Below are positions 8,592 through 64,000 of a DNA stretch of 64,000 nt, in pieces. Position 1 is the first letter of the stretch; the number at the start of each line of letters is the position of its first letter. Under the pieces are notes generated by a model. The model did not search any database. It was not told the origin of the DNA and saw only the letters and a list, made by a program, of their open reading frames with translations. Position numbers and translations under genes: made by a program. This stretch comes from Deuterostichococcus epilithicus (Eukaryota > Chlorophyta > Trebouxiophyceae > Prasiolales > Stichococcaceae): positions 186,001-250,000 of the forward strand of contig JAVTLE010000017.1 in the NCBI GenBank assembly GCA_033439295.1, written 5' to 3'.

Positions 8592-8891
8592 TTGTTCCGA
8601 AAAGTCTTGCTTCTTTGCCAACAACTTATAGGCAACTCCTGGCCTTTTTCGAGGAGATGCAGCTTCTTATGTCGCTGTCACGTACGGACGGGCTCGTTCA
8701 CTACTTGCAAGTTGAAGTGAGGGCGGCTTGGCTGAAGGGAAGCTAGCCCCCAACAGGAAGCACGCCGGCCGCAGCTGGCGACTGCAGCTGTGCCACCGCA
8801 GCCCGCCAGGGCTTTCGCGGCACGACCAGCACTGCAGCAACTCTCACGAAGCACTGCTCAAGGGTCTACCTCGCATCAGCACCGCGAGTCG

Positions 8892-11800
8892 TCAGAAATC
8901 TCGTGAAAATCTCAAACCCTGCACCTGGAAGGGCACATCCACCAGGAAGCCGCCGTGGCCAGCGGTCGGGTGCAGCAGCACCCGGGCGCCGCTTCCCGCT
9001 GCCGCCAGCTGCTTCCGCACGAGGCCGACCGGCACCAGGTCGTCGTGCGTGGACAGCATGATGAAGGTGGCGCCAGTCGGCATGTCCTCAGGCCACAGCA
9101 TCAGCTCGCTCCAGAAGAACCTGCAAGGAGCGTCAGGGTCTGCATGTTTCTTGCGAAGCCGGCTGTATCCGAGAGCATGTCCTCCGGCCACAGCATCAGC
9201 CCGCTCCAGCAGAACCTGCACGAAAGGGGAGCGTCAGCACGTTTCCAAACCTGCCCGACTTGCAGGTGAAGTCACTGATCCAACGGCGCAAAGCCGGGTT
9301 CAAGTCTGAGTGCAAGTCCTCCAGCCACGGCATCGGGCTCGTTCCGGAGAGACATGTGTATCGGATAGACCGACCCTCGGGCAACCAACCCCTTGCTCCA
9401 TTGAACATGCATACTCGGAAAAAGGTGTTGTTCAAACTGCTGAGACGCGCCCCCGGCAGAAGGCGGAGGCAATCATGAGGTCGCAAGGGGCACAGGAACA
9501 CGCCGCACTTGGCATTTTGTTTGAGCTGTTCAAATTGAAGGAAGGTGTTCCAGAAGCTGAAACACTCACCCGCGGCAGAAGGCGGAGGCGATCATGAGGT
9601 CGCGGGAGCACAGGAAGCGCGCCGCGTCCAGGACTCCCTCCAGGCCGCGCCCGATGTTTGCGGGGCGGTAGATAAAGTTGGCCAGCAGGTGGGGAGCGCA
9701 CGTCATGAGGCATACCGGGTCCAGCAGCGCCAACGAGTGCACCAGCTGTGGGAAGCACGAGACAAGGTAAGGCTCGTCAGCAAGGAACCAAAGATGTCAT
9801 TGGAAGGGGTGTGTATTGGAAGGGGTTGGATCCACCCCAGAGGGCAGGTCGCGAGGCATGCCGGGTTCAGCAGCGCCAGCGGGCGCGCCAGCTGTGCTAC
9901 ACCATCTGATGCTGACAGCAACAGGAAAAGAAAGGTGGGATCGCTCTGTGAAGGAGGTGAAGATGTGTATAATTTGAAAGCGATCGGCAGGTGAGTTAGC
10001 GCGCAGGTTATGAGGCACGCCAGGCCCTGCCTGTGTTGCCAGCAGGTTCACCAGCTGTGGGGCAAAGCACCAACAGGAGGTCCAACGCGGGGTTGTTAGG
10101 AGTCGAAAGGGTCAAAGGTTTTGAGGGAGGGCACAGGGCACCGCAGCCAGAGCCTGCCGGTCATGAGACATGCCGGCCCAGTAAATTTCAGTAAAGTGCC
10201 GAGGACAACGACTGGTGATGAAGATAGGCAGAACAGCGCGCCCGAGGTTGATTGTCCCTTCCCAGCAGCGTTGGGAGTGACAGAAGCAGCCTATGCGAAA
10301 GAACCTAGCAGCACCGCCAGCTGGGCGACGTGTGACACGCTGGGTGCAGTAACCTCGGCGGGCATGGTTGGATCTCTGCGCACTTACGTTCACACTCACG
10401 CTTCCCCTGCCAACGCTCGCACATACCCTGGGTGTGGCATCGCACAAACACACAGCTCCTCAAGCGGACTCGCCTAGTGTAGACCCGTGTTTTGCCAAGC
10501 AAGCATCAGCGTGTGCGCCAGCGTGGCTGCTGCAGAGCATCCAAGTCCCCTGTCATTCCGACCCCAATTGCCACCAAAGCTGCGCAGGCAAATTCCTCCG
10601 TGCACGGACGAGACTCCCAGCTGCCCTGGCGTTCAGCAAGTGTATGTAAAGTGCAGCGCATCTGGGTCACCGCTGCTGTTGACCCAGACGCATCAAGAGA
10701 GAATAGAGAGAGAGAGCGAGGATATTTTTTTAAAATACTCATTCTAAGAGGGTATCCTACTTTGAGAGGGAGAGAGAGAGGGAAACAAAGCAACTCAAGG
10801 GCACGAGCCAGTGCCATGCATCGCAAAAGAGGTGTCGCAGCCGCACGTTGCACGGGCATACAAGCCAGGCCGTGCTGTGTTGCATTCTGTTGATTCTGAG
10901 TTTCAAGCTCGTTGTGTAGACACCATCAGGCACCCACCTCTGGGTACAATGCAGCAGGCGCAGCACTACAACACTGTCGCAGCTGACCGCCTGGCCGCAT
11001 GCTTCAGCTCATTCTGACGGTCTCTGTCCGTGTCAGTTCGGAATGTTGCACGACAGAATGCTCGCATCCGGATGCAGCTGCGGCATTGCACCACAAGGGT
11101 GCCACAGCCATGCGCCACCAAGCCAGTGCGGCCCAGGCCTCTTGTGGCTGCCTGATCAAATGGCGTCCGTGTCTGTGTGTAGTGACAGCAGGCACGAGAT
11201 TGTGTTGCACGACAAAACGCACACCTCCGGGTGGAGCTGCCGCATGCGCGAGGCGACAAAGGTGCCGTAGCTGTGCGCCACGAAGCACGCGCCGTCCAGG
11301 CCGTTGACCTTCAGCACGCCCGCAAGGGCGTGCGCGAGCTCGTCCACGGACGCCGGCGCGCCGCACAGGCGCAGCGCCACGTGTCGGGCCTCCACCAGGA
11401 TAACGGGGTGGTGCGGCGCCGCGTCCGCCAGCATGCGCACAAAGCGCAAGTACGGCATCTGCGGGGGTTCAGAAAGAAAGGCGTGCTCAGGGAGGGTTGT
11501 GTGGGGAAGCTTGTCCAAGGCGTTCGAGGGGAACAATGCCCGCGCACAGCGGCGCCGCCACGTGTCGCGCCTTGGCTTAAACAACCAGGCGGTGCTGAGC
11601 CGCTTCGACCCACACGCACACACCACGCAGGTGCTCCATCCGCGAATCTGTGAAAGAGGGCCTCAACATTCTGAAGCATCACCCTCACTGACGTCCCTGA
11701 GCAGTATCGTTGAGATCATGAAATGTTGTGGAGCCACCACGCGTCACGGCGCAGCGCCAGCCAGCGCGCACAAAAAGGGCAAGTACACTTGTGCACTCGT

Positions 11801-14800
11801 GTATAGCTGGGCTATCAAGAACAAGTACCGTGTTCACAAGCAGCAATGCATGTGTGTCAGAAGCCGCCTTCCGACGTTTGAGGGGTTTGCTGCTGCTGCA
11901 AAGTGGCACACACCACACACATATACGCCATCTGCACTCTCTGAAGAAATGGACTCAAAAGCACAGGCATTTCCTTCCCAGGCATATCTGTATGGAGGCT
12001 GTTTGTCTGTGCGGCACCATTGCCGCCAGCATCTTGAGGAAAGTCGGGCAACGGGCGCACGGCCTCAATAAATCCGCAGCCACCGCAACCACAAGACGGC
12101 TTCAAGAGGGGCTTCCCTGGGCTCTTTTGAAGCAACAAGCGGCTTTGGGGGGCTGGCGGGAGACTCTCACACGGTTATGGCACCACAGGGCAGTACACCA
12201 GATGGCAGTTTTCACATATGTAGGTTTCTGGGGACGGCCTGGTGCTAACCACTCCCAAACTTCCGGCTTCACATCCTAGAACTGTGGGATATGACGGAAA
12301 ACACGCTCACCAGGCCGAGGCCGACGCCATGCAGGAAAACCAGCGGCCGCAGCGCCACGCTGCCGTCACCGCCGCCGCCGCCGCCGCTGCTTCCTGCATC
12401 CCCCCGGGCGCTGTCGCCATGTGCGCGCATGCTCGCCAGACCGCCGCCGCCGGCGGGCCGCTGCGTGCTGTCCGCTGCCGCCGCCGGCCGCACCCAGAAG
12501 GCGAAGCCACCAGACATCGATCGGTCGTAGCCCTGCGTGACGGGACGCAGCGCCTCCGGGCTGGCGCCTCGGCAGTGGCTAAACTGTCATATGCTTTGTT
12601 TTGCGGCTGGCGCCCAGTCCCTGCGACCTCGCGCCGGGTGAGCATGGGCTCAGTATGCTGCGTGAGGTGCATGACACTGACCGCAACTGCTTCAGCGCCT
12701 ATGTGGATGCCAAGTGCGTCCGACACAGCGGGCGGCGCAGCAGTTGCGGCCCTTGTGGCCTTAGGCCCACAGCCGCTGCGCAGTCACACGGGCCAGCCCA
12801 CCCCAGGGCAACCGCAGCAGCGCAGCCCAGCCTGGCAGCGGTCCATGTCCAATGGTAGATGTGTACCAGGCCGGCGACACCGCAACGTCCCAACAAGCAG
12901 CAGACAAGAGCCCACAGCCCCGAGAGCAGCATGTGGCTAACCAAAAGACCACTGTTGAGAGCACCACCACATGCATTCTACATCAAGTACATATATGTCA
13001 GCCCCCTCTTCAGGCAGGCGTGTTATGACCGTTCAGGTGCTGGCCAGTTGCCCTGGCATGCTGGCGCATATGCTACGCCGCCTGCTGCAGCAAATGCCAT
13101 GCCCCTTGCCGGAGAGGCGAGAAGAACACACAGCTCTCAACCCGAGCACCACCGGCATGAAGCAGCAGACTCACCTGGCGGTGCAGCAGGAAGCGCGTGA
13201 GCAGGCCGGCCGTCTCAGAAAACAGCGGCACGATGAGAGGCTTCGGCATCACCCGCAGCGGCTCCCACAGGTGCGCCATGGGCGTGATGTCTGGGTTGGT
13301 CCCCGGCGGAAACCTGCGGCGCAGCACAAAGCACGCTGAGACATTGCACTAGGGCAAGGGATACAGGCAGCCTCCCGGAAAGCAGCGGCACGAAGGGCAG
13401 CTTTGGCCACACCATACACAACGGCTCCAGGAGGCGCGCGACCGGCACAGTGTTCCGGGGTGGTCGCCAGCATGAACCTGCAGTTGGAACTGCACGACCC
13501 AGTTCTACCTGGGAAGACCTTGGCATTCAGCGCGTCAACCCAGCGGCGGCTCCCCTCAGGACTGCTGGTCTGGCAGGAACCGGCGGCGGAGAGACCAGCA
13601 CATCGACTAGCCCGCAAGGACCGCCTCTGCTGTCGGCGGCCCGTTGCAGGCACGATGATGACGTCATGAAGTTTTCCTGATTTGAATAGGACTGTATGCT
13701 TCCACTCCTCCCCTCGGCTGTTGGCAGCAGCAACAAGGCAGTGCACTGCCCAGGCGCACGCTTGGCGTTTGGCAACCCCTCCAGGGGGCATCAGGCGCCA
13801 AGAACCGTGGGCGCACAAGGGATGCTCAGCAAGGTTGTTGTTCCAGCCCTGATCCCCCCCCGGCAGCACCTCTGCGCGCTCCGCGCAACGCACGTGTGCC
13901 ACCGTGCGGTGTGCAGCTGCTTCGGATGTCAGCGAACACGCTGCTCGCGCAGGTACCGTCTCACTGCTGTGTACATGTCTCCCTTGCCAACTGGGTCTGC
14001 CCATCGACCCACAGCGCCACAAGCGCACTCCACGAACATTCAACATTCGACGTTACAGCTCCCATGCGCCTATTCAGTTTGCTGGGTTCCAATGTTGACA
14101 GTTGGACAGCCCTTGTGTCCCACTGGACCCCTCCAAAGCTTCCTCAAAGCATGCCACGAACGCTGCGTCTCGCGCTGCGGCTCGGTATTCCTCGATGCGG
14201 TTCACAGTCTGGTGGCCAGTCTCAGCAAACGAGACACTAGTGCATGCCTGACTATCCACAACGCCCCGGCTCGTCCGGCATGCGTGCGCTGCGCACTGCT
14301 GCTCGTCTGGCTCTGTGTGACTACCCGATGACAGCCCTCAAAGCAGCGAGGGCACACCTGACGCCCCGCGGCGTCTGAGCCCGGTCCAAGAAAACGCGCT
14401 GCGCGTGGCGCTGCTGCTGAGCTATTGGTTCGACGAGTCCCGACATGGCATGTCACCAGCCCACCTGACGTCCCAGAGCGCCTCGGCCCGTTCAACGAAC
14501 GCGTGCGTCGCGCGCTGCTGCTCCGGCTCCAGCGCGCCAAAGGTGCTGCAGTAGAAGCCGTATGCCACAAAGTCCTGCACGTTGCCCCGCCGGATGGTCT
14601 GCGGAAGCCGCGAAAAATTGACTGAGTTACACATCTCACGAATGTAATAGCAGATCAGCCTCCGCCCCTGACCCCGCCAGATGGTCTGCTCAGACGACAC
14701 ACGGCTGCACCTGCAGCCGCATGTCAACCTGCTGCAGTCCATCCATAGATGGCGCATGTCACGGCCCGCGCAGACTGTGTCCTCGAGACGCGGCTGCGAT

Positions 14801-21912: not shown

Positions 21913-24900
21913 TCATCTCTGCTGGAGGTGTCTCCGACAGCAGTCGCGGCAGGCTCGCCAAACTGTCCTCATCAGGGGGTGTTGGAGTCTGCCACATTTG
22001 ACGCCGCCACCGTAGGCGCCACCTCTGCCGGCGTCGTGGCCAGCGGCGCGGCCTTCGCGGGAGCTGCGACCGTCGGCGCGGCCTCTGCCGGCCGCCGCGG
22101 GCGTGGCAGAGAGCGCCGACTTGACCGCAGCGGCGGGCGCGGCAGTCGGCGCCGCCGTTGGGTGAGCCACCGGTAGCGCGGCAGCAGCGGACGCTCGGGG
22201 AACGCAGCCGGCCACAATGCGGCGCGGCTGATCATTGATGAAGCTGGCATGGCCCTTCACCAGCCTGCACGCAGCGATACGATGCCGAAATTAGGATTTT
22301 CAATCAGGTTCTCGTTCTCCCATTCCTTTTCCATTGACTGGCGACGCCGCAGCCGCCCTGCAGCAGATGGGCGGTGCAGGCTGCAGTGGGGTGTCGTGGT
22401 GGACGCATGCAAAGCGGACATCCGCTCGTGATTTTGGCCCCGGTCTGATGCTGCATGCTGCCCTGCTTGCCGGGCCTTCCCCCCCGATCCGGTCCTCAGT
22501 GCAATGGCCTTCATACAATGGTGGTTGAGTGCTGCAGTCTGCAGGCATGAAGCGCCAACCCCAACCACATGATCAACCTACAACAAGTGTCATTGCCCTC
22601 AACGTCGCAGACGGCGCGCATGTGCCCAGGGATGGCTGCTTTCTGCTGGGTGCAGTAAAAGGGTTCGACTCACCCGAAGGTGGTGTCGTTGCTCTCGACG
22701 CCGCGGTCGCCGCGCGTACGATCCGGGAAGGTCCACTCCCAGAACAGCGCCGCCCGCAGCGGCCGCCCCGCCGCCAGGCTGACCTTTACCTGCTGGTATG
22801 TTGCCCTGCAGGATGTATCATACGGAAGGCTACAACCAGAGACGAGCTTTCGCCGGTGTCCGGGTCCCACTGCCACTTGTACAGCTACGCATCTGCAGAT
22901 CAAGGTTCGCGTCATTCCAGTACAGCAACCGCACAGTGTCCCGAGCTGCCTCAATCTTTGCAACACTTGAAAGGAGAAGGATGACCGATGAAGGTATTAG
23001 AGGCTGTGCCTGAAGTAGGGATCCCGTGTTGCGGCAATGTCGTGGTTGGTATTGGGGCCAATGACCACCTGCACGGCAGGAACATTAGAAATAAGAGATG
23101 TTGCGTCAATCATATGGATGAGCTCGGATCATTCATTGCAGCAGCAAATGTTGCGGCTCATGCAGCAGATGATGTAAGGAAGAGCCCCTGGCAGCAGTCG
23201 GCACGATTTGCTCCCTCCAGCGGGCATACACCATGCTACATATGCATGGCATGTGCATAATCATTAAGGCGGAGTCAAGGAAATGCCACGATTGGCCCAC
23301 ACCCCCCTACTTCGCACCTTCGCTTCCTGTGGTGCCTCCTGGCCGTCAGTGCAGAATAGTTGTGGGAGCTGACCGACGTTTTAGCCAGTTTATGCGAGAG
23401 TGTGTGTCCAGCGCACCATGTCGTTGGCATTGGTGGACGCGATCTTACCAAACTCCTCCAGCACCAGCGGTTTCCCTGGCAGCAGCGCCTCCGTCGCCAG
23501 CTGGTGTCCCTCAGTGAACAGCGGCACCAGCCGCACCTCTGCATGCATGCAAAAGCAGGAAGTGAGCTGAACGTACTCGGAACACAAAGTAGGCTCTGTC
23601 GAAGGTTCCTTCGCACGAGTGGGTTCAGCCCCTGGCAGCAGGCATCAGTTGTCAGCTGGGGCCTACATAGGAAAACAACAGCATCAGGCGCATAGCTAAG
23701 TGACAAGATCCAATTATCTGAGTGCGATCGCGAACAAGGACAAGGTTACAAAAATCTGCGGGGACATCCACCGCCAGCTGGTGGCCCTTTGTCCTGAACA
23801 CCGGCACCAGGCGCTCGTCTGCCGTCCTCGGTTCGGCCTGGACTGAAGTCGAAAACGGGTCAGACTGGCGCTAACTGCTTTTTCTATTGCCGTTCATCTG
23901 GGCTGGTGATCGTTCGAGTTGCAGTGACAACAGCTGCGTGGCCGTCGATACCAGCATCATCAACGGGAACATGCATGTTCCCAAAACGGGAACTCGTCGA
24001 AGGAGCAGGCCTCTCGCTGCTGCCTGTTTACTGCTGGCAGCCATGGACTTAGCGGCTCAGACAGACCAGGCTCACCGGTGGTGTTCCAGTTGTCGGGCCA
24101 CAAGTGGAAGGCGGCGTAGTCGATGTTCGGGCTCGAGTGCTGCCCCACAAAGTCCTGTGGTGCACATTTATATCAAAATCAGTGGATGTCTGTCCTTGTT
24201 TGCTGTCTGCTGGAAGACATATGGGCCCACACACGCTCGCGTGCTGCCCCACAAAGTCCTGCAGGCCACAGACCTGAAAACTTTTCAAGAGTCGACTTGA
24301 CTAGCTGCAGAGGTGCATGCAACAGTAGTGTCAATTGAGATGGTTCGGTCTTTCCTCTGAGCTCGTGTGAGAAGGACGCATTATCCCCACCATTATCAGA
24401 TGGAAGCAGATCCTTCATGACAGGCAGGATTCTTTGGGGCGGGTTGCCAGCTAGATGAGGGCGCGCCTGGCCAATGCGGCCGGACCAGCCGGGCGCAACA
24501 TTGCCGGGGGTGCCGAAGGGGTTGTACTGCGCATAGGGGGTGCCCTCCAAGAAGAAGCCCTCCTCCCCCAGCGTCACCTGCAGCAAAGATAGAGCTGTCC
24601 TCTTCGATTTTGTTAGCCATGCATCGACTCTTAGGCGCCGAAAAGAGGTTGTACCTTCAATGTACTACCTCCTCCGCAGGTGGCACCTGCCATCAGATGA
24701 CCCGAGAGGCTTCACAGTGCACCAGGCTGCAACGGCTTCCAGCCTTGGTTCACCATATCGATCACGGATGGGCGGCTCACCATGTGATTGGGGTCCACAG
24801 TCTTCATGAAGGCAGCCATCTGGTTGACCCACGTCGTCACCGGCCCTGGGTTGCCTGCCGAGCGACACAGCACCCACTCAGCGCCTTCCAAGCTGTGCAG

Positions 24901-27900
24901 GTGAGTTGGGCCTCATCAGACGCCCTCGCCATAGACTGCTCCAGATGGCAGTCCAAACGGGTTGCCTGCAGGATATGTGCCGTTACCATGGCAGCGCTGC
25001 AAAGCTGCAGATATGGGTTGGCCCTCTCCAGATGCCTACCCTGTCTGCCTTCAAAAACAGAAAAGGTCGCCCAGCGGATCGAGGGCCATCAAGGCCTTGG
25101 AGAAAGCCAGTGGTGACGCTCGAGCTGCACTCCTGCCGGCACCGTACATGCCGCTGCCGGCTCCGTGAGTTGCGCAGCAATTTGGCAGCGGAAGGGCTTC
25201 GTTTCACACAGCCAGCTATCCCACCAAGAGCCATTGCAATGCATGCCAATAACAAACCTGGCGGTTGCTGCGACTGCGGGTTGCGCGGCTCGTTGTAGAG
25301 GTTCCACGAAAAGATCGCCGGATCATTCTTGTACAGGCCCCCAGTGTAGACGTTGCGCCGGTTGGCCAGCGTCCGCACATGGTTCATGTAGGTCTGCTTC
25401 ACCCGAGGGCTCGTCCAGAACTGGTCCTCGCTGACGCCCGCCCAACGCACATACTGCGCGCAGATGGATAATGCAAAACTGGACGGAGAATGAGCAAGGG
25501 CTGTGCGTGGTCGTTACAGCAGCAGCGCGGGTGGACAGCACCAGCAGGGCATGCGCTGCGGGGCGTGTGCCAGAACGTGCGTGATGCCCTCAGGCCCAGC
25601 CAGAGACATCCGGCGATGAGCCGCCGCCAACACCCGCCGCTAGACTAACCTGGCACCATGCTGCCACACATCCCTTGGCAAGAGAGGATGTCATGTGAAA
25701 TGCAGGAGCGCCGCCGCACCGCGCCCTTGTTGTCCGGGATCTGCCAATTGTCGATTATCGTGAGAACCGCCTGCAGCAGCAAAGTACACCACGGCGCTTG
25801 GGTGAGGTTGGTCAATGGCGCATGCGCCCTTGAAAAGGTGCGTGCAGTGCTGAGCCTGTTGCGCCCTACGGCGACTGCTTGTGGGGCTGTGAACCCTGTT
25901 CAGACTCATTGCATCGCCCAACCTCAAACCAACACAGCCATCCGCTCGGGCACTCAGCTCAGGGGCATTGTTCAGGAACTGCTCAATCCACATGTGACGG
26001 CGGCGCGCCTTGAGGTTGAAGCGCGCCGACTGAGCGAGCATGTAGTCCAGTGCCCGGAACACGGTCTCGTTGTAGCGCCCTGTGCCAGCAGGCGCAAAAA
26101 GACGAATAACATGATTTGGTCAAGATGCCGTCCCGTTGGATCGCCCTTCGAGAGGCGCAGTCAGCAAACACGACCCTCGCTGGCTGTCAGGCTGCAGCTC
26201 TGGCACGTGTACAACAGTGGCGGATCAGACTCGCATCTGGACGCTGCCTGCGTGTTGACATGGCGGCCCGACATTCCCTCTTTGCCGCGCTTGTTGTGCA
26301 CACGCAAACGAGACTGGTCGGTCCAGCAGATTGGCACGCGTGCAAGTCCTTCAGCAAAAGCGCCAGGGTTCTGACTCGTAGGGCAGACACGAATCAAAAT
26401 TTCAACAGATGCAGCAAACCTCCGTGTGCTTGCGTGGCCCTGGTTGCAGCACGAATTCCGAGCATTCGCCGCCAGCGACGAATGTTATTTTATCCCACAT
26501 GATGTTCGTCCCAGATGGAGTGACAACTGACAACAGGCACTTCGAAGGAATCTGACAGCACACCGGGCCCAGGCTGCAGCACGAAGCCAGAGTAGTCGCC
26601 TCCGGCAGCAAACACGCGGTAGACGCCGAGCCCAGCACCGTTGGCCTCTGTGAAGCGGCGCGTGACGGTGTCGTTTTGTGCTGCGAGGTAGGCGGGGGCG
26701 CCCGCGAGCGGCGGCGGCAACGGCAGGAAGGTGCCCGCCAGGATGAGCTCGTTGTACCTGCAGAGAGCACCACGAGGAGGGCATTCAGTCCCTTGACTGC
26801 ATGAATGGAGGCGGCAGTGGCGGCGGCGGCGGCATGAAGGTGCCTGCCTGGATATTCACTCTGTCCCTGCGACGTGGACAAGATTCAGCAATTACTGTCA
26901 TCCGACAGTACTGACGCATGTCTCCTGCTGGTTCAGTGCCGGAATCAAGTCGTTTGAGTCGCCGCTGCCTGCTTGCCTGCGTGCCGCATCATAGCAAGCC
27001 GGTATCAGGAGTGCAGCTGCAGCATGAGGGATGACACCACCCCTCGTCTATCTTTGAAGGAGTGAACTGGGCCTGCTGAGTCAAGCAGCTGCACCACCCC
27101 ATGCATATCAGCCTTGAGCGTTCAGAAATGGCGGCAGCACTGATCAGAGAGACCAGCGGCTTGAGAGCTTAACAAGCTGATGGGGTTCCATCACTCAAAA
27201 TACAGGCAACTATTCCCAGTGCACAGGAACTCGCAACATTGTCTCGTTGAGAGATTCATATGTGAAAGTTGTGTGATTAAAAACGCGCACGAGTTCCAGC
27301 CGGTGTACAGGAACTCGCGGCAGGCGTCATCCACGAAGCGGCAGCCGGATGCGCGGATGATGCTGGCACTGGCCGTCTGCAGCGCGACAGTCGAAGCGAT
27401 GCCTGCTGCAGGCGTCGAGGGCGCGACTCCGGCCAATGCGCCGCTCGGCGGCGCCTTGGGCAGATGAAACACGGTCGGCGCCGCAGTGGGTGCCGCTGTA
27501 GGGGCTTTCGTGGGAAGCTCAATCGGTGCTGCCGTGGGCGCCAGCGTCGGCGCCTTGGTATGCAATGCAGTGGGTGCCTGCGACCTGGTAGGATATGTAC
27601 CAATTCTCGGGAGAGGCGCCGCCGTCGGGAGCTTGATCGGCAGCGCCCTCAGCGGCGGCGCCTCTGCACCCGGCCGGAAACCGAACTCTGCATCAAGTAC
27701 AGCTGGAGTCTTACTGCCTTTACTCTGACATCTCAAGAAGCTGCCATGCAATAGCAACTCATTCGCAAATGCTGGAGCGGATTGGCGAAGCTTCCCACTT
27801 CAGAACAAGCATGGCATGGCCTCAGACCATACAGCCAGCTGGCCTGACCACCATCAGCTCTGCATGTGCAGGCTCACGGTGCCATGCCTCGAGAACTGAG

Positions 27901-45949: not shown

Positions 45950-48900
45950 ATGGCGCCGGCGTACGGCTTCCCGGCGGGCGCCCGCGGCCGGCGGCGGCGC
46001 CAGGAGTCGTCCGCGCTGCNGACGCTGCTGCTGCCGCTGGGGCACCATATCGCGCGCCTGCCCAACAAGCCGCCCGTCACCCTGGGCCTAGTGGGACGTG
46101 CGTCGCTTTTCAAGCCACATAGCCGCTGTCCACCTCTGGCCGCTGCTCACCTCCCCCCTTCTGCTTTTGGCGCTGCACCGACGGCAGCCTCCTGCTGCAT
46201 GCGCTGCGCCGGCTGGGCGACCGCTGCTGCGCATCAGTGTGAGACGGCACCATTTCAGGGCTAGCCCTCTGACTTGGCGCACTATCACAGTCGCCACCAG
46301 CCGAAACCCCGACATGTCCTCTGGCCCTTCCGTAACGGCGCATCGCGTCCTGCTGCTGTCTCTTCTACGATCTCCGACCCCTTCGAGCCTTTGCATTTCG
46401 TGAGCTTCAACATCCTTGGCATACGGTCATGGCGGTGCTGCGACTCGAGCCGCCCGGCCTCGAGCTTGTGCCGCTGGCCATCAGATCTTACTTCATCGGA
46501 CTTCCTTCGGGTGCCGTCATGGTGGCGCTGTCCGGCACTGAGAGTGCCGCCGCCGCGTCCCCTGCTGCTTGCTATCAACCTCGCTTGACCCTTCAATTCA
46601 CCGTCAGACCCTTCAATAACTATTGTTTTTGGGTGCAGTCATGGTGGCGTTGTACCTACAGCTGCCTGGCCTCGAGTTCGTCCCGCCGACCGAGGCTGCA
46701 TGCCTGCAACCGTACCGCATCCTCGAGGTCAGCTAGTGCTTGTCTTGACCCTCGTTCTATTCATGTGCCGTTGTTAACCGGCTTCCAGTGTGCATCTCCG
46801 AGAGCTGCCAGTGACACGAGCAACATGCTGTCGAGCTGCCCCTGTCTGTCACGCAGCGCCTTGCAGTCTCCTTGCTTGGGGGCACTGTGTGCGGGCGCGC
46901 GCTGCCAACACAGTGTCATTTTGCTGAGTTGTCGATGGCGTCTTTGCCAGGGAGGGGAGTGGGGCCGCATGCTGTGGAGTGGCCTGCTGCATGCAGGTGA
47001 GGCGCCTGACAGCGCTTGTTCATTGTATGTGGGCAGGTATCAAGTCTTACCATGTGCACGCTGTCTGTTTAACACCTCGAAAATAGGTTTGCTGACGAGT
47101 GTTGCCCTCAAATCTGCAGACGACATGCACATCTACTACAATATGGCGTCCTTCCTGTGGAAGGTGGGGTCCTGGTGCAAATCCAACTTGCATCCATTCT
47201 GATGAGTACCTGCCCAGTGCCCAGCAGCGTGCATTCAGACATGTGGGGCAGCACGGCGCCGGATTGAACGTCAACAGCTGGAAGCTGGTTGTGCTACAAG
47301 GTGGCATGCCGGTGCCGGCGCTCGGGTCCGCATGTTTTACGGCATTTCCGAGCTGCTGCTGGCGTACCCTCGCACATGCTGCTCTTTGAAAACAAAGGCT
47401 GCTGCAGGCGAAGAAAGGCCTCAGCATGCTACCCAAATCTTAAGAGTTTCGGTCTCACTCACACTCACACTCCCATACTCACACATGTCACATGCCACTT
47501 GCAACAACAGGGTGTCGTGCTGGAGCCGGCGCTCGGGTCGGCGCGCTTTGGCGTGCTCGTTGCCGAGCTGCTGCTGGCGTCCCAAGCGCTGTACGTGGTG
47601 CTTGCCCGCGGCCTAGCGGCCGCGGCACCGGCCCTGGCCGCCACCAGCTACTACGGCGGCTGCGCCGTGGGCTTCTCTGGCGTGCTGTTCGCGCTTAAAG
47701 TGGGTTGTTGTCATGCTCTGCCCCCTGCATCATACCCTCCTGCTTCCATAAAGACACTTGTCAATGCACGGTGGAAGTGTGTCCGTCCTCTACCGTGGAT
47801 GCGTGTGCAGCTCGCTGCCGCCGTGGTCGCGGTCAGCGTCAGGGTGGTGGCCGCTGCTTGGTGCGCTTGCTGAGCCGCAAGCCCTGGAACATGCAGGTTT
47901 CGCCCCATTCTGCTGCGTGCCATTGCCCCTGCAGCGTGTGCTCGCCCCGACTCAGGCACCCTCCGTCATCTGGCCGCCCTACGCAGGCGGCAATTCCACG
48001 AACACCATAGCGCCAACCTCGTAAGATCTGTGAGGAGAAACAGGCAAGACAGCTGACGTATGCTGCGCCGCCGTGCAGGTGGTGCTGAACGCGCGGTCTC
48101 CAGACATGGAGACAGTGTACGGCGTCCAACTACCCGCTAAGGTGCGTGCGGGTTTGCCACCTGAATGGCAGCTCTGCGAAGCTGCCTGCAACCGATCTCT
48201 TCATTGATGCATCTGGCGTCATTACATTGGTGGCTGCCAGTGCCGGGAGCGCTTGCCACGTGCCGCCCTGCTTGGCAACAGCGTGCGGCAAACCCCTGCC
48301 GCTGGCAGCTGCTACGCGGGCAGAGCAGGGCGGCTGCCTGAGATTTTCCATACTCTCGCCATGCAGGGTTGTCCTTCCAAATTGCTGCCAGTAAGATCGC
48401 CGTAGGAGGCCATCCATCCGCCACACCTGTTCCATAATTGCCTCTGCAGTATGTAGCGTGGGCGGAGCTGGTGATCATTTCCCTGGTCACACCCAACGCC
48501 TCCTTCCTGGGCCACCTGGCCGGCATCCTGGCCGGCCTGGCGCACCTGACAGTGTTTGACCGCGGGGCGGCGGCGCCGGGCGGCGGCTTTGCCGCGCGGC
48601 TGGCGCGGCGCCTGCGGCGCCTGCTCATCTTTCGTCGGCGCTACTCTGGGGTACGGCCTTTTAGCCCTTTCTCTCTTCGGCCCTTTCTCAAGTGCCCTCT
48701 CCCGATTCCGCGGCGAGTCTGGCTCGTGCGCGGGCTGCTGCTGCTGCGTTACAGGGTGTCAGGCTCGCTGCTGCTGCTCAGCCCCACCGTATGGACTGGT
48801 CGTGAGGAATCACACCCTGGTCTGCCGGGCACATCCGGCAGCTGGCCGATTTCCAGCCCTGCAGCATCTGGGCTTGTGCTTGTGTGCCGCAAAGTGCGAC

Positions 48901-49109
48901 TGCTGCTGCCGCAGGCGCCGCAATACGCACAGAGCGGCGCTGGCGGCGGCGGCGGCGCAGCGGGGACTCCTGCCGGCGGCACGGCCGGGACCAGCGCCGG
49001 CGATGCGACCGGTGGCGGCGGCCTGGGCGAGGCGCCGCCGGACGACACGGATCCTGCGGCAGTGGCGGCACAGGTCCGACGGCAGCGCGAGCGCTTCTTT
49101 GCACAGCAG
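45950..49109 (+). CDS. Rhomboid-family intramembrane serine protease (RBL14/RHBDD1-like)
   Basis: Exons 45950-46097, 46639-46727, 46951-46996, 47120-47163, 47511-47699, 48079-48141, 48450-48650 and 48915-49109 are all in phase with GT donors (325 codons). The order is typical for the family: RILE, then WGRMLWSGLLHADDMHIYYN, catalytic Ser in GFSGVLFALK near residue 165, and catalytic His in ASFLGHLAGILAGL near 215. A Gly/Ala/Thr-rich tail follows with VRRQRERFFAQQ at the end of the last exon. The protein should cleave membrane proteins within the bilayer. Exon 8 ends at a donor, so the gene continues; the next phase-compatible exon is 49578, which would fuse it to the multi-TM protein downstream. 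Position 46020 is N, inside a Leu-rich segment. Confidence 0.85.
47314..47365. repeat. Decayed copy of rhomboid exon 5 start in the preceding intron
   Basis: It shares GCCGGCGCTCGGGTC (47314-47328 against 47525-47539) and CCGAGCTGCTGCTGGCGT (47348-47365 against 47563-47580), offset 211-215 bp. Copies of the exon 2 start lie near 46425 and 46515. Confidence 0.9.
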
Positions 49110-49577
49110 GTGAATATCCGCGCCTTCCAGGCTGACCTGGTTGCACATCCCAGACACTTTGCAGCTTCATTGCAATACATGAGGCCCGGCGGCAGCGCTA
49201 GCACCCGTTGCGCAGCAGGTGCAGTTTGATTTGGATTGGCTATCTTGCGACTCACGACCGGCCTGCAGCTCAGGTTGCCTCGTGCAGCCAGCCAGGTGGG
49301 ACCAAGGATGGCATAGAAACAATTCTATGGAAATCCAGGCTAGCAACGGTCACCGCAGGAACCCAGGAACCCTGCTGCGTGAGAAACCACTCGCAGCCCA
49401 GCAGCGTATCCGCGACCCTGCTGAATGCAAGGCACTGCGGAGGGCAGCTGGTTCCAGGGCCCAGGGGAATCTGGACATTACAAGATACCAATGCAGCGGC
49501 GATGCGATCAGCACCTGGAGACTTCGTAGATGGCATCCCACCGACTGAGCTGATGCGTGTGCACAGCGCACTCGCAG

Positions 49578-52500
49578 GGCCTGAGCGGCCGCGCCAGCCG
49601 CCGCGGCTTCAGCCGCAGCGGCGGCACTGCCTCAGGGGGGCCGCCGGACCTTAGCCCGCTGCTTGACCCGCTGCTGCGGTCTGTGGGCCTCAATGGCGGC
49701 AGCGCCGCCGGCAGGAATGCAGCTGCGCCGGCGGCGGCGGCAGCCNGCGGGGCCGNCAGTGCGTCCCGGTCAGCCGCCAGGGTGGGCGGCGCAGGCATGC
49801 TGGCGGCCATCGTGGCATGTGTCACGGCGGCGTGGGCGTCCAGGCCCGGGCGGGACAGCTTTGCGGAGTATGCGTCTCAGGCAGCGCACAGGGGCTTTGG
49901 CCGCTGGCCAGGTGTGTGGCTCGACCGCGTTCCCCAAATGAGGCTGTTGATGGTGTCTGCCGTGTGCTTGTCGATCATGCTCTGCCTGCACCGCCGCAAG
50001 TGCTTATGCATGCTGTGCAGCTGTGCCGGTGCATCGTGAGGGCAGGCGCCACTTGGGAAGTGCCCAAGCGAGGGCACGCCATAGTGAAGCACGGCGCACT
50101 ATTGCAGTGCGTATGCAAGGCTCGACGCCTGCGACCTGCGCCCGCAGGCCTGGCGGTGGCGTCGCTGCTGCGGCTGCAGCAGGCGACGGGCGTGGGGCTC
50201 AAGTTTTACAACCTCGGCGTGGTGACGCTGGCGCGCTACCAGGGGCTCTGGTTCGCCGGTGCCTTTGGCCGCTGGGCGCCGCTGCCGTCGCCCTGGCTGG
50301 TGCGCAAATGACTCAACACATGCGAGATACCCACACTGCTTTGTCCAGGGTTCATGACCTCGGGGGTGGGACACCCCTGGAAAATGCAGTGCCAGGAGTC
50401 AGCTGGCGAAAGCCTGACCAATGCCCCCAGACATGGTGCTTGTGGGGTGGCAGGCGAGATCACGAAAAAACACACCGCAGCGCCGCGGCACCTGACGCCG
50501 CATGTTGGGCACATCGCAGACGCTGCGAGGAAGTGTGCCCGCCTGTCCCGCAGACCGTCCTCAATGGACAGACAGCGTGCAGCAGCAGTGGCTGCAGTCC
50601 CAGGACTGCAGATGTTCAAGAACAGCCTTGCTTCTCAGCGCCCCTCTGCCCAGTGTGGCCCCACGAACATCTGCCTCTGCAAAACCACATCGTCTCAACA
50701 AATCGTTTTGCTCCGCAGCTGCGCAAGCTGCTGCCGTCGGCATTTTCTCTCTTCTGTCAGAAATCATTGCCAATTGTCTTGCACCAGCTTTTCCCCCAGA
50801 CCCCGGTGACAAAACTCAACACGCTCAAAACCTAGTTTCTGACTCCGCAGGTGCGCATGCTGCTGCCATCGGCGTCCACCCTGCTGGCGGTGTTCTTCGT
50901 CCTGTTCTACCTGCTGCGGCGGGCGGCGTCGCCACCGGCGGTGATCCGGCACCTGGAGGTTGGGCCGGGTGCCTGGCCGACGGCATACCTGTTGGCAGGT
51001 GACATCTCTTGGCATGAGCTTGGCGTCTCCTGACACACACATGTACCTTTGGCGGCCAATGTGCAGCGGCTGCCCCCGCCGCCACGCTGCCGCAGGGGAC
51101 CCAGATACGCCAATGCAGCCCACTGCTGCAGGAAGCAGGGAAAGCATCAGCGCAGCCCTGCTGACGTCTGGCTGCACGCTGCGCTGCAGGCCACCGGGCT
51201 GTGCTAAGAAGCTTGCCAAGCACAGCACCTGCACTTGCAGACGGGCTACACCATTCCGCTGCCAGTTTGAGAAACGTTGCATCTACGTGCAGGCCTGTGC
51301 CACGACTCTGCGGTTCGGACAGCAGCGGCCGCGGCATTCGTGCTCACAGCCGGCCGGAAGCTGGAAACAGCCGTCGGCGGCGGCGCCCGCCTGTTTGCCG
51401 TCTTTGCCGCAGGCGCGCACATGCTGTTGGGGTGTTAGGGTCCAGCAGTGTGAACGCAAGGTTCGACATGAACAAGGTCTGCATCAGGCTGAGACCTTAT
51501 GCAGCCATGCGCAGTCCCTCAGCATCAAACTCTAGTCAGCCCACCTGTCATTGCGGTCCGCATGCTGACCAGCCAAAGTGTACAGTGCTTGCCTCTGCAG
51601 CCGCTGGGGGTGCAGTAGCATGCCGTCCAGCATGTGGCGCCGATTCTGCAGGGCGTCTATTGGAATCGCTGCACGGGCTAGCTAGCTATCGAAATGCTGC
51701 AAGATGCGCCTCAGGGCATGACAGCAGCGGCTGAGCCTGCTGCACCCACATTGACGAGCGGAGGAATGTGCGCGGTTCCATGTGTGCATGCAGACTCGTA
51801 TGCGTTCCGTGTACTGAACAGCAGGCTGCGCAGGTCCGCGGCGTCATGCGGGCGGCGCAGCAGCATCGCCGTGTGCGCCTTTCTGAGGCTGCTTCCACAT
51901 CAGTTGATATCGGGAAGTTCGTGTACATGCAGGCACTATGCTCACATATGGCGCTGTGTGGGTGGCCCAGCGGTCGCGCCGCACGCGCCTGTGGCGCGCC
52001 ACCGGCAGCGGACCGGGGCTCGCCGCGCTGCTGGCGTTTGCCGNCNTNGCCGCGCCGGGCACTGTCATCCTGACCCTGCCGGCGCTGGGGGAGCTCCCAG
52101 GAATGGTGGCATCGGGCGCGGCGGCCAGCGCGGTGATCGACGGAATTCGCGGCACAGCTCTGAATGGCCTGAGCGGCGCTGCTGGCGAAATACAGAGGCA
52201 GCTACGGGCGGCGATGGGGCTGCCTGCAGGCGGGCAGGCGGNAGCGGTCGGCGGCGGCGCCGGCCGCAGCGGCGCACGCGGCCGGTCCGCCGCCGCGCCA
52301 GCCAGGGCGGCAGTGGCCGGCTCGCGGCAGCCGCCCCGACCACCGCTGCGCCCGCCGCCGCGGCCCCGCCGGCACGCGGCCAAGCGGCCGAGCGCAGCTT
52401 CCGGCGTCGCCATCTTCCCGCTCCGCCTGTCGGCAGCGCAGCTACTGGCCGCCATGGCGGCGCCCTCCCTGCTGAGCCTGGTCCCCGCAGCGCTGGCGTG

Positions 52501-58602: not shown

Positions 58603-61600
58603 TCAGGAGGACGCCGCAGCTGCGTTCTCCAGGCCGAAGATGCGGTACAGGTCGCCGGAGATGAAGTCGTTGTCCACCAAGCTGACGAGGTACCTGATTA
58701 TAAATTTTGCGGTTGACAAACGTACTGAAATTGTTCTGACAGTTCAGGAGTACCACATTTTTGAAATGCTGTTGACACACCAAATATGATAGGGAAGCAC
58801 ACCAGGAGTCGACGATGCCGCCGATGAGGCGCGCGGCCGTGGAGCCCTCGCCGTAGAGGGCTGCCCACTCTGTCTGCCACAGCTGGAAGGCCTCGTCCTG
58901 TCACAGGAGACAGATCGGTTTCAAGGAGAGGTGCAGCGAAGCTGAGCTGGTGACAGCCTGACAGAGGCCACCCTCTAAGTGTGCCACAGCTAGAACGCCT
59001 CGTTCTGCAGGAGGGCGAGGGCATCCTCAGGAGATGCATCTCGACTGCTGGGATGCACGGCCGGCCCGTGCAACCGGCAGCCGGCTGCAGTGCTTCGCGT
59101 CGTTAGCGGAGGGCACTGCCCACGATGTGGCCAGGTGATGCTGTAGCGGCAACATGAACGACTGCCAAGGCAGCGGCGGCAACCGTGCGAGAGTCTGCTG
59201 ACGGGCGACCTGGCGACTGCATGCTCGGAGCCCTGCATTTGCTGTGACAGAGGAGCGGTCTTTCTGGGATGGAGGAGGACCTCCGGCCAGACCCTGATCA
59301 GCAAAGCTGAAGCTTCTCAAGTTTAAAAGCTGTTCCGGCACCTCAACGCACGGACACACACCTTCCAGACGAGGAAGGACTGCTGGTTGACGACCGTCGG
59401 CCAGAAACAAGGTCAGTATGTTTGGATTTTGTAGATCAATGCACCGACACGTACCTTCCAGACGAGGAACGACTGCTGGTCGACGACCGTCGGCTGGATG
59501 ATCTCCTTGCCGGGAAACACGCCCCACGTGACCGCGTTGGCGTCAGCTGAGGCCTGCGCACGGTTTTGGTACGGTTGCGCGCTGGGCACGTTCAGTGGAT
59601 GCCCACCGAGCAGGCCTACTCTGGCCGAGGAACGCCACTCTTACACATTCGGGACGCCCAACCGAAAGAAAGCCGTCCAATATCCGCCCGCAAAGGCCCC
59701 GCCGGAGGCGTAGACCACAACCCGGAGGCGGTTGTTAGGGTTTTGGGAGCTGCGCATGCGCGGCGACGCTGAGAATTGCCGCGCAAGCGCGAGCTGGACA
59801 CTAAAAGACTTGCGATCCAGCGCCCAAGCCAGAGGCGCAGTTGGCGGGCGTCCAGGCCACCCGTGGCGTTGACCGCCATGCAGGCAGGAGTCCTCCGCCC
59901 CTACGCCCCAAACAAATTCCGATGACAACACCAGCTGGAAGAGCGCACCTGGTTGGAGTGGAAGTCGCCCTTGCTGTTCACGGCCATGTACGTGAGCGAC
60001 GAGAACTCCGCCGCGGCTGCCTTCAGCGCCTCGAACTTGTCGGGCGCCACGAAAAACTCGACGTATGCCTTCTGGTACACGTACCTGCTCAAGTATCAGT
60101 ATTATATTTAGTGGAGGATCTGGATGAGGTTTAGCACCAAGCTTGTGCCTCATCTAGCGGCGCTGGGTGTGCGGCATTGGCCGCTGCATAAATCCTGTGC
60201 CGCATGGCCTGACGCATTCAAGTCCTGCATGAGTGAGAAATACGGTGGATGTGAAGAAAACGAGGTGTACGATAATCAAGCCACCTGACATTCCTCCTGG
60301 ACACGCGCATGCAACCCCAAGCCTGCCGCTTGACTTTTCGAAGCACCGTTTCGACACCCAACAAGCGTTGCACGTAGACTGGGTTTCTCAGGGTGCAGCA
60401 CTGCATGCGTCCGGTCTGCCGGCACAAAGGGGAGTCGCTCTCTCTGCCCAGCAGAAGAAGCTGGGGAAGCAGAGGAAACTGCGCACCCGCCCGGGCCGCC
60501 CCAGCCAACGGCGGCGTCGTCCGACGGCGCCGCGTTGACGCGCGGCTGCGAGTTGATGGTCAGGTACCCGCCGCGGTTGAGCGCCACCAGCTGCTGCGAG
60601 ATGGCAGAGCTCTCCTTCTGCAGGCCGCCGATCTCGTTCCACGGCATGACGTCCAGCTTGCCTGCGAAACAGATAATTCAACAAAACATAGAAAGCAGCA
60701 TTTACACGGTCGGAGCCGTCTGCATGGCGTCGTTGTGCATCAGAAGGAACCGCGCAATGTCTTGCTCCGCAGGCAAAGATCTGTTACATCGTGTGCTCGA
60801 AGGCTCCCAGCAACAGAAACATTGCAGATGACGCCAAGTGCGCCGCTCTGAACGCAACCAGCACCACAGTCAGGCGCTGCCAGTCCAGATGCACGACCAG
60901 AGTCTTGCTTCCTCCAAGGGGGTGGTCAGTGCTCGCAAGCTCGCCATGGCATGGCAGGATTGCCCACGCGGCCGCGGTGCAATGGCATACAAAGGCAGCT
61001 TGGCACAGTGGCCCGGCCCGAGGAAACCTGGCGCAACACAGTGCCGTGCGACGGACCGTCACGAGTAGCACAAGTTCACCTGCGGTGAACCAGTCCTCGA
61101 GACCTGGACGGTGCCTGCCGTGCTGAGCGGCAGACAGCTGATCACAAGGCAAAGACCACAACACACCCCTGGAGCACTGGCAGGGCAGGGTTTTCACAGT
61201 GCAGGAAGATCTGGACGGACACTATTTTCCTAATCAACCACAAACCGGACCGTTTTCTCTGCTATTCAATCCTGAGCAGCTGCCGCACCCGTGGTGTAGT
61301 CCACGAACACGCGGATGATGTCGGCCAGGCTGGCCGGCGCCTCGCCCCACGCGGCCTTTGCCTTCTCGCGCCGCTTGTCGCTGCCGGTGTGCCGCCGCAT
61401 GAACTGGTAGTCGCTCAGGGTGCCGTACGCCGGGCTGCGCGAGTTGCCCCAGCGGCCCGCCGGGAAGCGGTCCCAGTCGGCGGTGCGCTTCAGGTACGCC
61501 TGCGGCCGGTTGGACCTGCGGTGCGGGGTCCCAGGCGATGGAACATGGAAGGAGAAACACGGAAGGAAATATACGAACTTCCTTGTGACAGGGCCGCTGG

Positions 61601-63481
61601 GAGTGCTGCAGGTACGCAGGCAAGCAGGAGTGCGGCCGGGTGTGTCACCCACAGTGGAACCTTCCTGAACATCTGGAGGCTGAGGGGCATCGATGGACAG
61701 AGCGATGGCGCGAGATGCCGTCAAATGCTGGGTGAGGCGGCAGGGCACGGCGGGCGCAGGCAGCAGCAGTCTTAACCTGCTGGTCTGGCACCCAGCATAC
61801 AGACTTCGGCATGGCCAAGGAGCTGACCAGCAGGTCGAGACGTGACGGGCGACGAGCACCATGCGTGCTCAGGGCGCCATGTCAACGTCAAGACGACTGA
61901 ATTTGAAGATGCCTGGGTTTGTATGTGTGGCAGGAGAATACGTAGGAAGCGCACCAGTGGATGGGCCGCACACTCTCCTCCTTCCGCGAATCGTTTGTGG
62001 GTGGCCGCCACGGCAGTGTGCGCGGGACCTGCGAGCGACGCACCAGGGTGATCAGCATGACAGCGAGTACGATGAGGGAGGATCGGGAGCCCCTCATCTG
62101 CTGCGCCTGTGCCCGCCAGCCCCCGATGACTGACGTAGCCCCCGCTACATTGCCGGCTCACCCGGGGAGGCAGCTACAGGGCTGCCCTGTAGCTAACCCT
62201 TCAGCGTTGCACCAGGCACTGTGGCTGGTTACCAGAGGCGGCGGCGGATGCGGCACTCGGGTCTCACCTGCTCGGGTCTCGTCTGGGTTTGGATGCCAAC
62301 GAGAAGCTGAGGACTGGGTGTGGTGCACACCTTGTCGTTGATGAGGCCCAGAGCCTCCAGGATGGCGACAGCAGAGCGCTCCATGTTCAGAGTGTACATG
62401 TGGAGCCCGGGGACGTCGCCTGACTCCAGGATGCGCTTGCACATGCCCACGCCCTGGTCGATGCCGAATTTCTGCGCAGCAGGGCTCAGTCCTGATGCCA
62501 GGTGCCGGCCGGCTTCTACAAGGTGTGTGCTGGCGGCGTCGGCAGTCAGTCGCACACACCAGATGCACATGCCAGGTCTGCTGGGCCGCCTCAGGCCGCG
62601 CCTCGCCACATGCGGCAGCCGGCAGGCCCTGGCGCAGGGTCCAGATATGCGCCGAAGCGGCGCGCGCCATGACAGGCGCGCTGACAGGACACTACAAGCT
62701 CCAAGCTCCAAGCTGCAGGTTGCTTGCTGTGCAGCCTTGGGTGGTGGCGTCGTCCGGGTGCTCGGCACGATTGCCGTGCAGAAATGGGGGGCGATGCCCT
62801 GTGAGCTGCAGCGATCTTCGTCAGGCTGCAGCTGATTGCTGAGAAATGGTCAGCAGCTGTCGAGTTGGAGTTCGCACCCGGACGGCCTCATCGTTATCCT
62901 TCACCGCCTCCAGCGCCTCCGCAATGTCTGCCGGGATGCGCGTCTTGCAGAAGCCGGTCATGCGCTTGAAGCCGCCGTAGGTCGTGATGGGCATGATGCC
63001 TGCGGTCCAGGACAGGGGTCAGGGGTCAGGCACCGCGGGCCAGCTCAGGGTCTGGGGACCTTGCAGGATGGCGTCACGGCCCCGGCGGCGCCCGACGTCG
63101 GTGTCGACCAAGAATGCCCTCCCGCACAGGGCGGCTCTGTCCACTCTGCCTGCAGCAGTGCACTGCCGCGAGCAAGCACCGCAGGCTCGGCTCGATTCCG
63201 GCCTTGCAGGGGGGGCTCTGCTGACGGGCTTAAGCGAGGCCCGATGCTCAACAGAGGCAGAGCAGTGCGAGCATGCACACGGGACGATAGGCGCTCTGAT
63301 GCCGCCAGAGCCCTGGCGGTTCTGAGGGCAATTCGGTGTAAGGAAGCAAGGGGTGTGAGAAGAGCGAGCCTGGGATGATGGGCACGCTGATGCCGATGGA
63401 GCGGCAGTCCTTCACGAATTGCAGGAAGACCTCCACGTCGTAGAACAGCTGCGTCACGACCACCTCACCGCCCGCGTCCAC
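58603..63481 (-). CDS. MTHFR: Methylenetetrahydrofolate reductase, plant-type (N-terminal part outside window)
   Basis: Exons 63370-63481, 62878-62999, 62331-62471, 61955-62028, 61289-61515, 60487-60661, 59949-60084, 59455-59553, 58803-58897 and 58603-58693 are fully in phase: 424 codons including the stop. The catalytic barrel end is clear ([50 protein letters not shown]). The C-terminal domain follows ([71 protein letters not shown]-like [15 protein letters not shown]). It reduces 5,10-methylene-THF to 5-methyl-THF for methionine synthesis, in the cytosol; plant enzymes prefer NADH. One intron needs a GC donor (63369, CAG|GCTCGC). The first roughly 150-170 residues lie beyond 64000 or in exons not seen. 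No frame breaks. Confidence 0.95.
59348..59404. repeat. Copy of an MTHFR exon 3' end with its donor
   Basis: The true exon end 59441-59497 is repeated 93 bp away with 50 of 57 bases identical. The minus-strand donor AAG|GT is kept. Confidence 0.93.
62172..62194. repeat. Perfect 11-bp palindromic hairpin in an MTHFR intron
   Basis: AGCTACAGGGC at 62172-62182 and its reverse complement at 62184-62194 are separated by a single T. Confidence 0.9.
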
Positions 63482-63530
63482 CTGCACATTCACAGAGGCG
63501 GCATCTGATAAGAGCACGGACACAGACCCA

Positions 63531-63815
63531 TGAAGAACGACTGCGTGATGGCCACCCCGGCGCCGGCGCATACGTGTGGGCAGATGCAAGATGTGAGTTG
63601 ACAACCCACACTATCTGACAGCCCGCAAAACCTGACTTTGCATGGTTGAGAGACCTCCAGGGCATGCTACACGACCGCCTCTCCAACTACGTTGCCAACC
63701 TGTTAAACCCTAAACCCTTTCCAAGGTCTGAAGGACAAAAGTGCCCAGTGACAACATTGACATCTTGCCCACAGCTGTGTGACGGCGACCTCGGCTCCGG
63801 CATCCACCTCTGCGC
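63531..63815. repeat. Two decayed copies of the first visible MTHFR exon start
   Basis: True sequence (63442-63486, minus) encodes [13 protein letters not shown]. Copies at 63771-63815 (VDAGAEVAVTQLW) and about 63531-63580 (VCAGAGVAITQSFF) keep the reading frame. They lie on the upstream (intron) side of the exon. Confidence 0.85.
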
Positions 63816-64000
63816 ATCTTGCGTACTGGCATTCAGGATGCTTGTCTGAGTGAAGGGGCGTGTGTCGGCTGTGCAGACGCCCCACAGACTGCCGACTGTT
63901 TCGGGTGCACCATGAGCGCTCTCACGCAAGACACACTGCTCGGGCAAGCGCTGAGAATGTGGCAGCGCCTGCCGCCGCCGCCGCCGTGGCGCTTGCCAGC

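Follow-up and report, generated by a model that had tools for sequence, protein, structure and literature searches.

The introns of the alga Deuterostichococcus epilithicus studied here hold decayed copies of the edge of the neighbouring exon. They were investigated in the window, i.e., the whole 64-kb stretch of DNA that was analysed (C15:186001-250000, from a genome of 46.8 Mb in 21 contigs), and in three further stretches of the same genome. The pattern is real and dense, and known kinds of events, viewed through a filter of selection, account for it best. We consider ordinary short tandem duplications crossing an exon-intron border, after which selection keeps the real exon alone recognisable, to be the best explanation, with a probability of about 0.75. 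What is new is the extent of the pattern, the ladders of copies and their uneven spread over the genome; as far as has been shown, no new mechanism is involved.

Exon-edge copies in the introns

The DNA sampled amounted to 334 kb in four stretches, namely the window, the 20 kb of C15 directly upstream of it (C15u; L028-L029), 200 kb of C1 (C1:100001-300000; L003-L022) and 50 kb of C5. The gene finder was trained on the window, the C1 and the C5 stretches, and C15u was decoded later with the same model. It settled on donors of approximately GTGCGC/GTGAGT and acceptors of GCAG, and predicted 13 genes with 92 exons in the window. A Pfam scan of six predicted proteins, or parts of them, out of 13 considered disclosed domains in four, comprising Kelch, Rhomboid and MTHFR (window) and LCM (C15u), and at E 0.001 recorded no domain in the product of gene 8488-16134 or in a fragment of the 21913-28693 product. 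From its motifs, we take gene 8488-16134 to be an alpha/beta hydrolase; it has a paralogue on C11, which supports the exon borders of the window gene.

Comparison of the window with itself, conducted without gene models (pairs of at least 31 bits), revealed 30 direct and 0 inverted repeats at offsets below 300 bp. At all offsets above 600 bp, the direct repeats numbered 25 and the inverted ones 15; on C1, 17 direct and 2 inverted repeats were noticed at offsets below 300 bp. In the exon-end test, each intron, trimmed by 30 bases at each end, was compared with the 50 terminal bases of the exon before it and with the 50 initial bases of the exon after it, and a score of at least 28 was considered a match; 348 of 474 introns (intron at least 120, both exons at least 40) were taken. 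The exon-edge copies of the preliminary description were borne out and exceed chance, as 7/53 upstream and 9/53 downstream exon ends of the window matched their own intron, where other introns as targets gave on average 0.2 and 0.1 matches and the inverted orientation none. The corresponding numbers were 6/27 and 4/27 in C15u and 4/59 and 5/59 in C5, both with 0 inverted, while C1 gave little signal (1/236 and 5/236; inverted 3 and 2).

A census of pairs over the 334 kb, C15u included (at least 28 bits, offset below 700 bp), recorded 116 direct and 23 inverted pairs. The direct pairs comprised 55 exon-to-intron, 13 intron-intron, 39 exon-exon and 9 other pairs, and the 55 were contributed by the window (26), C15u (11), C5 (9) and C1 (9). 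In 50 of these 55, the facing splice junction lies at most 30 bases from the source. Inverted exon-to-intron pairs numbered 2 in 334 kb, both on C1. The features recognized in the window are as follows, in window coordinates.

9080..9150, minus strand: acceptor-side exon edge (exon 8937-9120) with 30 intronic nt, source of copy 9175-9245 (self-BLAST E 9e-14)
9175..9245, minus strand: decayed copy of 9080-9150 at a distance of 95 bp, AG retained (self-BLAST)
9450..9506, minus strand: decayed copy of donor-side exon edge 9569-9625, GT changed to GC (self-BLAST)
9694..9750, minus strand: acceptor-side exon edge (exon 9570-9745), head of a ladder (self-BLAST E 7e-9)
9840..9896, minus strand: ladder copy 1 of 9694-9750, offset 146 (self-BLAST E 7e-9)
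9987..10070, minus strand: ladder copy 2 of 9694-9750, offset about 302
11044..11139, minus strand: decayed copy of donor-side exon edge 11203-11302, offset 159 (self-BLAST)
11543..11644, minus strand: copy of acceptor-side exon edge 11362-11463, offset 181
11747-11786, minus strand: second copy of acceptor-side exon edge 11362-11463, offset 333
13378..13481, minus strand: copy of acceptor-side exon edge 13218-13317, offset 160
14156..14418, minus strand: three-copy ladder of donor-side exon edge 14464-14523, offsets about 107, 217 and 339
24235..24261, minus strand: copy of exon edge 24131-24157 (self-search E 2e-4), predicted as exon and so counted exon-exon
26436..26476, minus strand: copy of donor-side exon edge 26566-26606
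26816-26853, minus strand: copy of the other edge (26707-26744) of the exon with edge 26566-26606
46426..46531, plus strand: two copies (46426-46474, 46506-46531) of acceptor-side exon edge 46628-46686
47296..47368, plus strand: copy of acceptor-side exon edge 47507-47583, offset 211, AG lost (self-search E 3e-7)
49182..49221, plus strand: copy of donor-side exon edge 49072-49112
50711..50741, plus strand: copy of acceptor-side exon edge 50843-50873
58971..59013, minus strand: copy of acceptor-side exon edge 58864-58909
59343..59401, minus strand: copy of donor-side exon edge 59436-59494 of the predicted MTHFR gene, GT kept (self-BLAST E 2e-15)
63771..63809, minus strand: weak copy of exon edge 63445-63483 (score 33, shuffle maximum 27)

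Between 9080-9150 and its copy, 38/41 bases of the exon part and 21/30 of the intron part are identical, and the corresponding values for 59343/59436 are 38/40 and 15/19. Among the eight pairs listed in the preliminary description, five are strong in the whole-window self-search, and the identities given there (43/47, 50/57 and 37/43) are exact. Two others are weak, as 63442/63771 scored 33 where 200 shuffles reached at most 27, and 31221/31330 has E 0.08 and lies outside all predicted genes; the remaining one, 63442/63531, scored 25 where the shuffles reached 27 and does not rise above chance. Many pairs were found beyond that list, e.g., 9450/9569, 11044/11203, 11362/11543, 13218/13378 and the three copies beside 14464. 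Exon-to-intron copies fall in six predicted window genes, fewer than the at least eight unrelated genes claimed, though one model probably fuses several genes, so the count would come near eight.

A reading of the pairs as chance likeness of GC-rich, coding-like sequence, or as gene-finder error, has in its favour that the listed pair at 63531 lies within the shuffle range and that some copies were themselves predicted as exons (24235-24258; L028 2077-2100). It has next to no credibility given the 7 and 9 own-intron matches against means of 0.1-0.2 elsewhere with none inverted and the excess of direct repeats obtained without gene models, and it is refuted for the strong pairs; chance similarity itself is ruled out by the inverted, other-intron and shuffle controls.

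In introners and in introns made by transposons, one element is common to many genes. The present copies are alike in being repeated sequence within introns, and differ in matching their own exon and not other introns: no introner-like shared element was seen, as exon edges matched their own introns and not the other introns sampled. Three genome searches for dispersed copies returned only the locus itself and the exons of the C11 paralogue of the hydrolase-like gene; these results are lower bounds, since a local copy of 74% went unreported and decayed copies could escape. With 59343-59401, only its own locus was among the matches listed, again a lower bound, and the exon edge of 9080-9150 recurs in the C11 paralogue, with no match to the copy reported beside it. 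A dispersed element is thus unsupported by the other-intron targets and by the three genome searches of limited sensitivity.

Change, spacing and density of the copies

The identity, splice-dinucleotide, codon-position, spacer and simulation measurements refer to the set obtained before C15u was added, comprising 44 copies, of which 39 have a facing junction (11 donor-side and 28 acceptor-side). Mismatches at codon positions 1, 2 and 3 were 85/549, 93/549 and 105/536 (15.5, 16.9 and 19.6%), so the concentration of differences at third positions that a coding exon under selection would give was not seen in these copies, and 38 gap openings were counted in 1865 aligned columns. The nearly even mismatches and the gaps indicate that the copies evolve as non-coding DNA does, next to an exon that hardly changes. 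The splice dinucleotide was kept in 20/39 copies. The preliminary description had offered arrays of decoy splice sites as one meaning of the pattern, and copies kept as decoys, alternative exon edges or poison exons could draw on these 20 and on the more frequent retention at acceptors (16/28) than at donors (4/11). Yet there is no excess retention among the 39, the number being at or below what 82% identity predicts (P(X<=20) = 0.028 at an expected 0.67), and the even codon positions and the gap openings likewise speak against such a role, making it very improbable.

The offset in the 39 measured pairs has a median of 122 bp, with the middle half at 106-167 bp and 90% within 81-334 bp, and several junctions bear two or three copies in a row. 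The steps of these ladders are nearly even in three of six, at 14464 (107/110/122), 9745 (146/156) and L028 (98/116/120), and uneven in the other three, at 11458 (181/152), 46638 (122/90) and 23538 (156/121). Each copy of the 14464 ladder resembles the exon (0.55-0.64) more than it does its fellow copies (0.46-0.49), and both copies at 11458 are nearer to the exon (0.55, 0.49) than to one another (0.44); at 9745, copy 2 has 0.60 in common with copy 1 and 0.54 with the exon. The impression that copies close to the exon are fresher proved weak, since the nearest copy scored best at 3/5 window junctions with at least two copies above the shuffle maximum (12 junctions examined).

On C15 (window plus the 20 kb upstream), introns with copies become more frequent with length, from 2/32 below 300 bp through 5/25 at 300-450 bp to 11/23 at 450 bp or more, and though longer introns give more room for a match, the inverted controls on C15 are empty. 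C1 displayed no such trend (2/135, 3/73 and 1/28, respectively). Introns of the C11 paralogue measure 291 and 195 bp against 449 and 1477 bp in the window gene; the comparison of 195 with 1477 bp skips a predicted 7-bp exon (10400-10406), taken as spurious, and the paralogue could instead have lost sequence. The copies were irregularly distributed, with 37 in 114 introns of C15 and 9 in 321 of C1. At a score of at least 30, introns with a copy were 18/80 on C15, 8/59 on C5 and 6/236 on C1 (C15 against C1, p 1.3e-7). Inverted local repeats were densest on C1, which harbors 19 in 200 kb; the window has 2 in 64 kb, C5 has 1 in 50 kb and C15u has 1 in 20 kb.

Predicted exons 23750-23842 and 24235-24258 wholly or partly resemble neighbouring exon edges, and the spliced translation contains repeated peptides and an internal stop, which makes them an annotation trap. 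Direct local repeats were also observed outside predicted exons at 40129-40316 (offset 116) and 39130-39418 (a three-member set), and these may represent duplicated edges of exons that the gene finder missed.

Proposed tandem duplication across the exon-intron border

We propose that short segments may have been duplicated in tandem at sites including exon-intron borders, sometimes repeatedly at one border. A unit reaching across the border would leave its outer exon-edge copy within the intron, from where splicing would remove it; with the extra edge spliced out the protein would be unchanged, and so the event would be tolerated. The real exon edge would be held by selection while the copy drifts, as would the intronic parts of both units, which would soon become unrecognisable and leave an apparent exon-edge copy ending at the splice site. 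Repeated events would give rise to ladders and longer introns. The duplications would presumably stem from break repair or replication slippage, and splicing would ignore the copies.

The best-preserved border-crossing array found, at L028:1864-2300 on C15 upstream of the window, consists of four units of about 98-120 bp. In unit 1, next to the exon, identity is 0.93 of 27 in the exon and 0.83 of 70 in the intron, and in the farther units 2 and 3 it is 0.78 in the exon and 0.44 and 0.41 in the intron. This array likely displays the process, as the youngest unit matches exon and intron and the older units the exon alone, and most of the other copies probably arose in the same manner. Here the combination of young full-length and older exon-only units is observed directly, as are elsewhere the copies, their direct orientation and their neutral-looking change. 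Since 2077-2100 was predicted as exon, the main pair of the array counts as exon-exon and stands outside the 55. The recurring local duplication lengthening introns that the preliminary description suggested is supported by the copies in rows, this full-length young unit, the excess of long introns with copies on C15 and the shorter introns of the C11 paralogue.

C1 contains one complete border-crossing tandem pair, at offset 82. By eye, alignments run on into the spacer with indels in 4/12 of those shown (9569, 9694, 50843 and C5 19799). Spacer similarity past the match had p 0.005 against shuffles and 0.036 against mismatched pairs for 50711/50843, and p 0.01 and 0.10, respectively, for 9450/9569, where it seems to run on with indels; for the copies of 46628-46686, p against shuffles was 0.005 for the farther and 0.18 for the nearer one. 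Overall, similarity past the match gave z 0.77-0.82 on the intron side and z -0.03 to 0.06 on the exon side.

In the simulation, tandem duplications were placed at random in window and C5 introns, and everything but the nearly constant exon was left to drift, though the real introns used may already hold old copies. Three of four settings, with ages of 0.25-0.7 substitutions per site, gave a ratio of match to offset of 0.34-0.37 and a median of 0-3 intronic bases, against 0.35 and 4 observed, and ratios of exon-intron to intron-intron pairs of 6.7-7.8 against 4.2 observed. Intron-intron pairs observed were 13 beside 55 exon-intron, and the four simulated settings gave 47 to 129, 6 to 47, 9 to 70 and 13 to 87. 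Simulated old tandem duplications reproduce both features, with matches that seem to end at the splice site and with exon sources in excess: at ages of 0.30-0.35, 32/81 border events were detected against 4/103 intron-internal ones, which makes exon edges conspicuous as the one place where a copy does not change. The earlier idea of the exon edge or splice site as the unit of copying is not supported, since old tandem duplications with one constrained copy look alike and intron-intron duplicates are not under-represented. Identity on the ungapped diagonal is about 0.65 over the 30 exon bases nearest the junction and drops within the intron, to 0.37 at positions 7-10 and 0.33 at 11-15, and a mechanism halting at the splice site, our first reading of this fall, is no longer favoured, as a simulation of older age with indels falls similarly. 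A two-fold contrast between exon and intron divergence, seen in four hand-picked pairs, was also dropped: all 10 qualifying matches, with at least 15 intronic bases, gave an intron-to-exon divergence ratio of 1.11 (simulated 0.98 and 1.35), the intron being more diverged than the exon in 5/10 and the overall difference not significant.

The agreement has its misfits. Duplication at a constant rate was rejected, giving match to offset ratios of 0.97 and 0.92 and exon-intron to intron-intron pairs of 222:156 and 188:124, because a steady rate would result in many complete young arrays; the 334 kb contain nine complete tandem pairs, defined by a match of at least 80% of the offset, of which five include intronic sequence and none exceeds 90% identity. 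Nine parameter settings were tried and their fit judged afterwards, and the age range without young events was chosen after the misfit of the constant rate. An age setting of 0.2-0.6 fits worse (match to offset 0.47; 129:47), and the fitted settings overshoot in match length (49-53.5 against 41 observed) and mismatches (0.20 against 0.17). Spacer similarity, at z 0.64 +/- 0.20 with 6/32 at p<=0.05, is about half of that in the fitted simulation (1.48, 44/108; 1.71, 33/72), and with equivalent mismatched pairs as the reference, z is 0.41 +/- 0.22 and 3/32 reach p<=0.05. Either there was a past regional episode of duplication, or some copies arose by another route, e.g., templated insertion.

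In templated insertion, repair of a broken intron would take a nearby stretch of exon edge as its template, the spacer never being duplicated. Microhomology or filler would then mark the breakpoints, which in these copies are probably too decayed to be legible. The low mean spacer similarity relative to the tandem simulation agrees with this, as do fairly fresh copies whose spacer similarity is absent (C5 47802, p 0.46; 59436 in the window past its 19 matching intronic bases, p 0.81) and the uneven steps in half of the ladders; repair-mediated proximal duplications including splice sites are described in vertebrates (PMC2671141). However, the young unit at L028 is full-length, the ladders at 14464, 9745 and L028 are nearly even, the spacer z is above zero, and insertion alone gives no account of sources reaching the facing junction in 50/55, so that we regard it as unlikely. 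We hold it quite doubtful that splice borders are where duplication starts (e.g., through co-transcriptional breaks), with edges and a few intronic bases copied without spacer during a former wave that affected particular parts of the chromosomes alone.

Relation to known duplications

Short tandem duplication at borders, the reading preferred here, has known relatives. In the potato RdRp gene, a tandem genomic duplication across the intron-exon boundary is described (PMC4974935); as here, the segment repeated in tandem runs from the 3' end of one intron into the 5' end of the exon that follows, but there a new intron resulted, whereas here the extra edge is seemingly unused inside an existing intron, in several genes and repeatedly. 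The AGGT model of intron gain is alike in that a tandem duplication leaves an extra copy hidden by splicing, and differs in that exonic AGGT segments are duplicated and new introns made, whereas existing introns seem to grow here. An intron gained in that way would open with a copy of the start of the downstream exon and close with one of the end of the upstream exon; 50 of the 55 copies recorded here face their own junction. The vertebrate proximal duplications are also local copies (median 147 bp), some with exon parts and splice sites, though their average distance was 1.2 kb, pairs at most 50 bp apart having been removed to exclude tandem duplications (PMC2671141); they differ from the present pairs in that 90% of our 39 offsets are 81-334 bp and ladders are present. 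Small tandem duplications at breaks with 3' overhangs, formed via Pol alpha-primase/CST, are reported from human and mouse cells (PMC8355091), and this route is a possible source of the events. No description of decayed exon-edge ladders was found in the titles and abstract openings searched, in which subscription journals were thinly covered, and the passages on intron, exon and repeat in the Coccomyxa genome paper do not mention them.

Such duplication would provide a route for intron growth with unchanged protein, whose record stays readable since selection holds one copy of the exon edge. Exon edges could thus serve as fixed references to find and date tandem duplications that are otherwise lost. 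The copies are also a warning for gene finders, as they can be mistaken for exons, which happened here. Elsewhere in the window, an imperfect hairpin-like self-inverted sequence of 74 bp with 83% identity (E 4e-12) was observed at 8379-8452, with weaker hairpin-like sequences at 31567-31624 (E 1e-6) and 59748-59795 (E 0.99), and positions 4771-4813 harbor a pure CTG repeat of about 14 copies.
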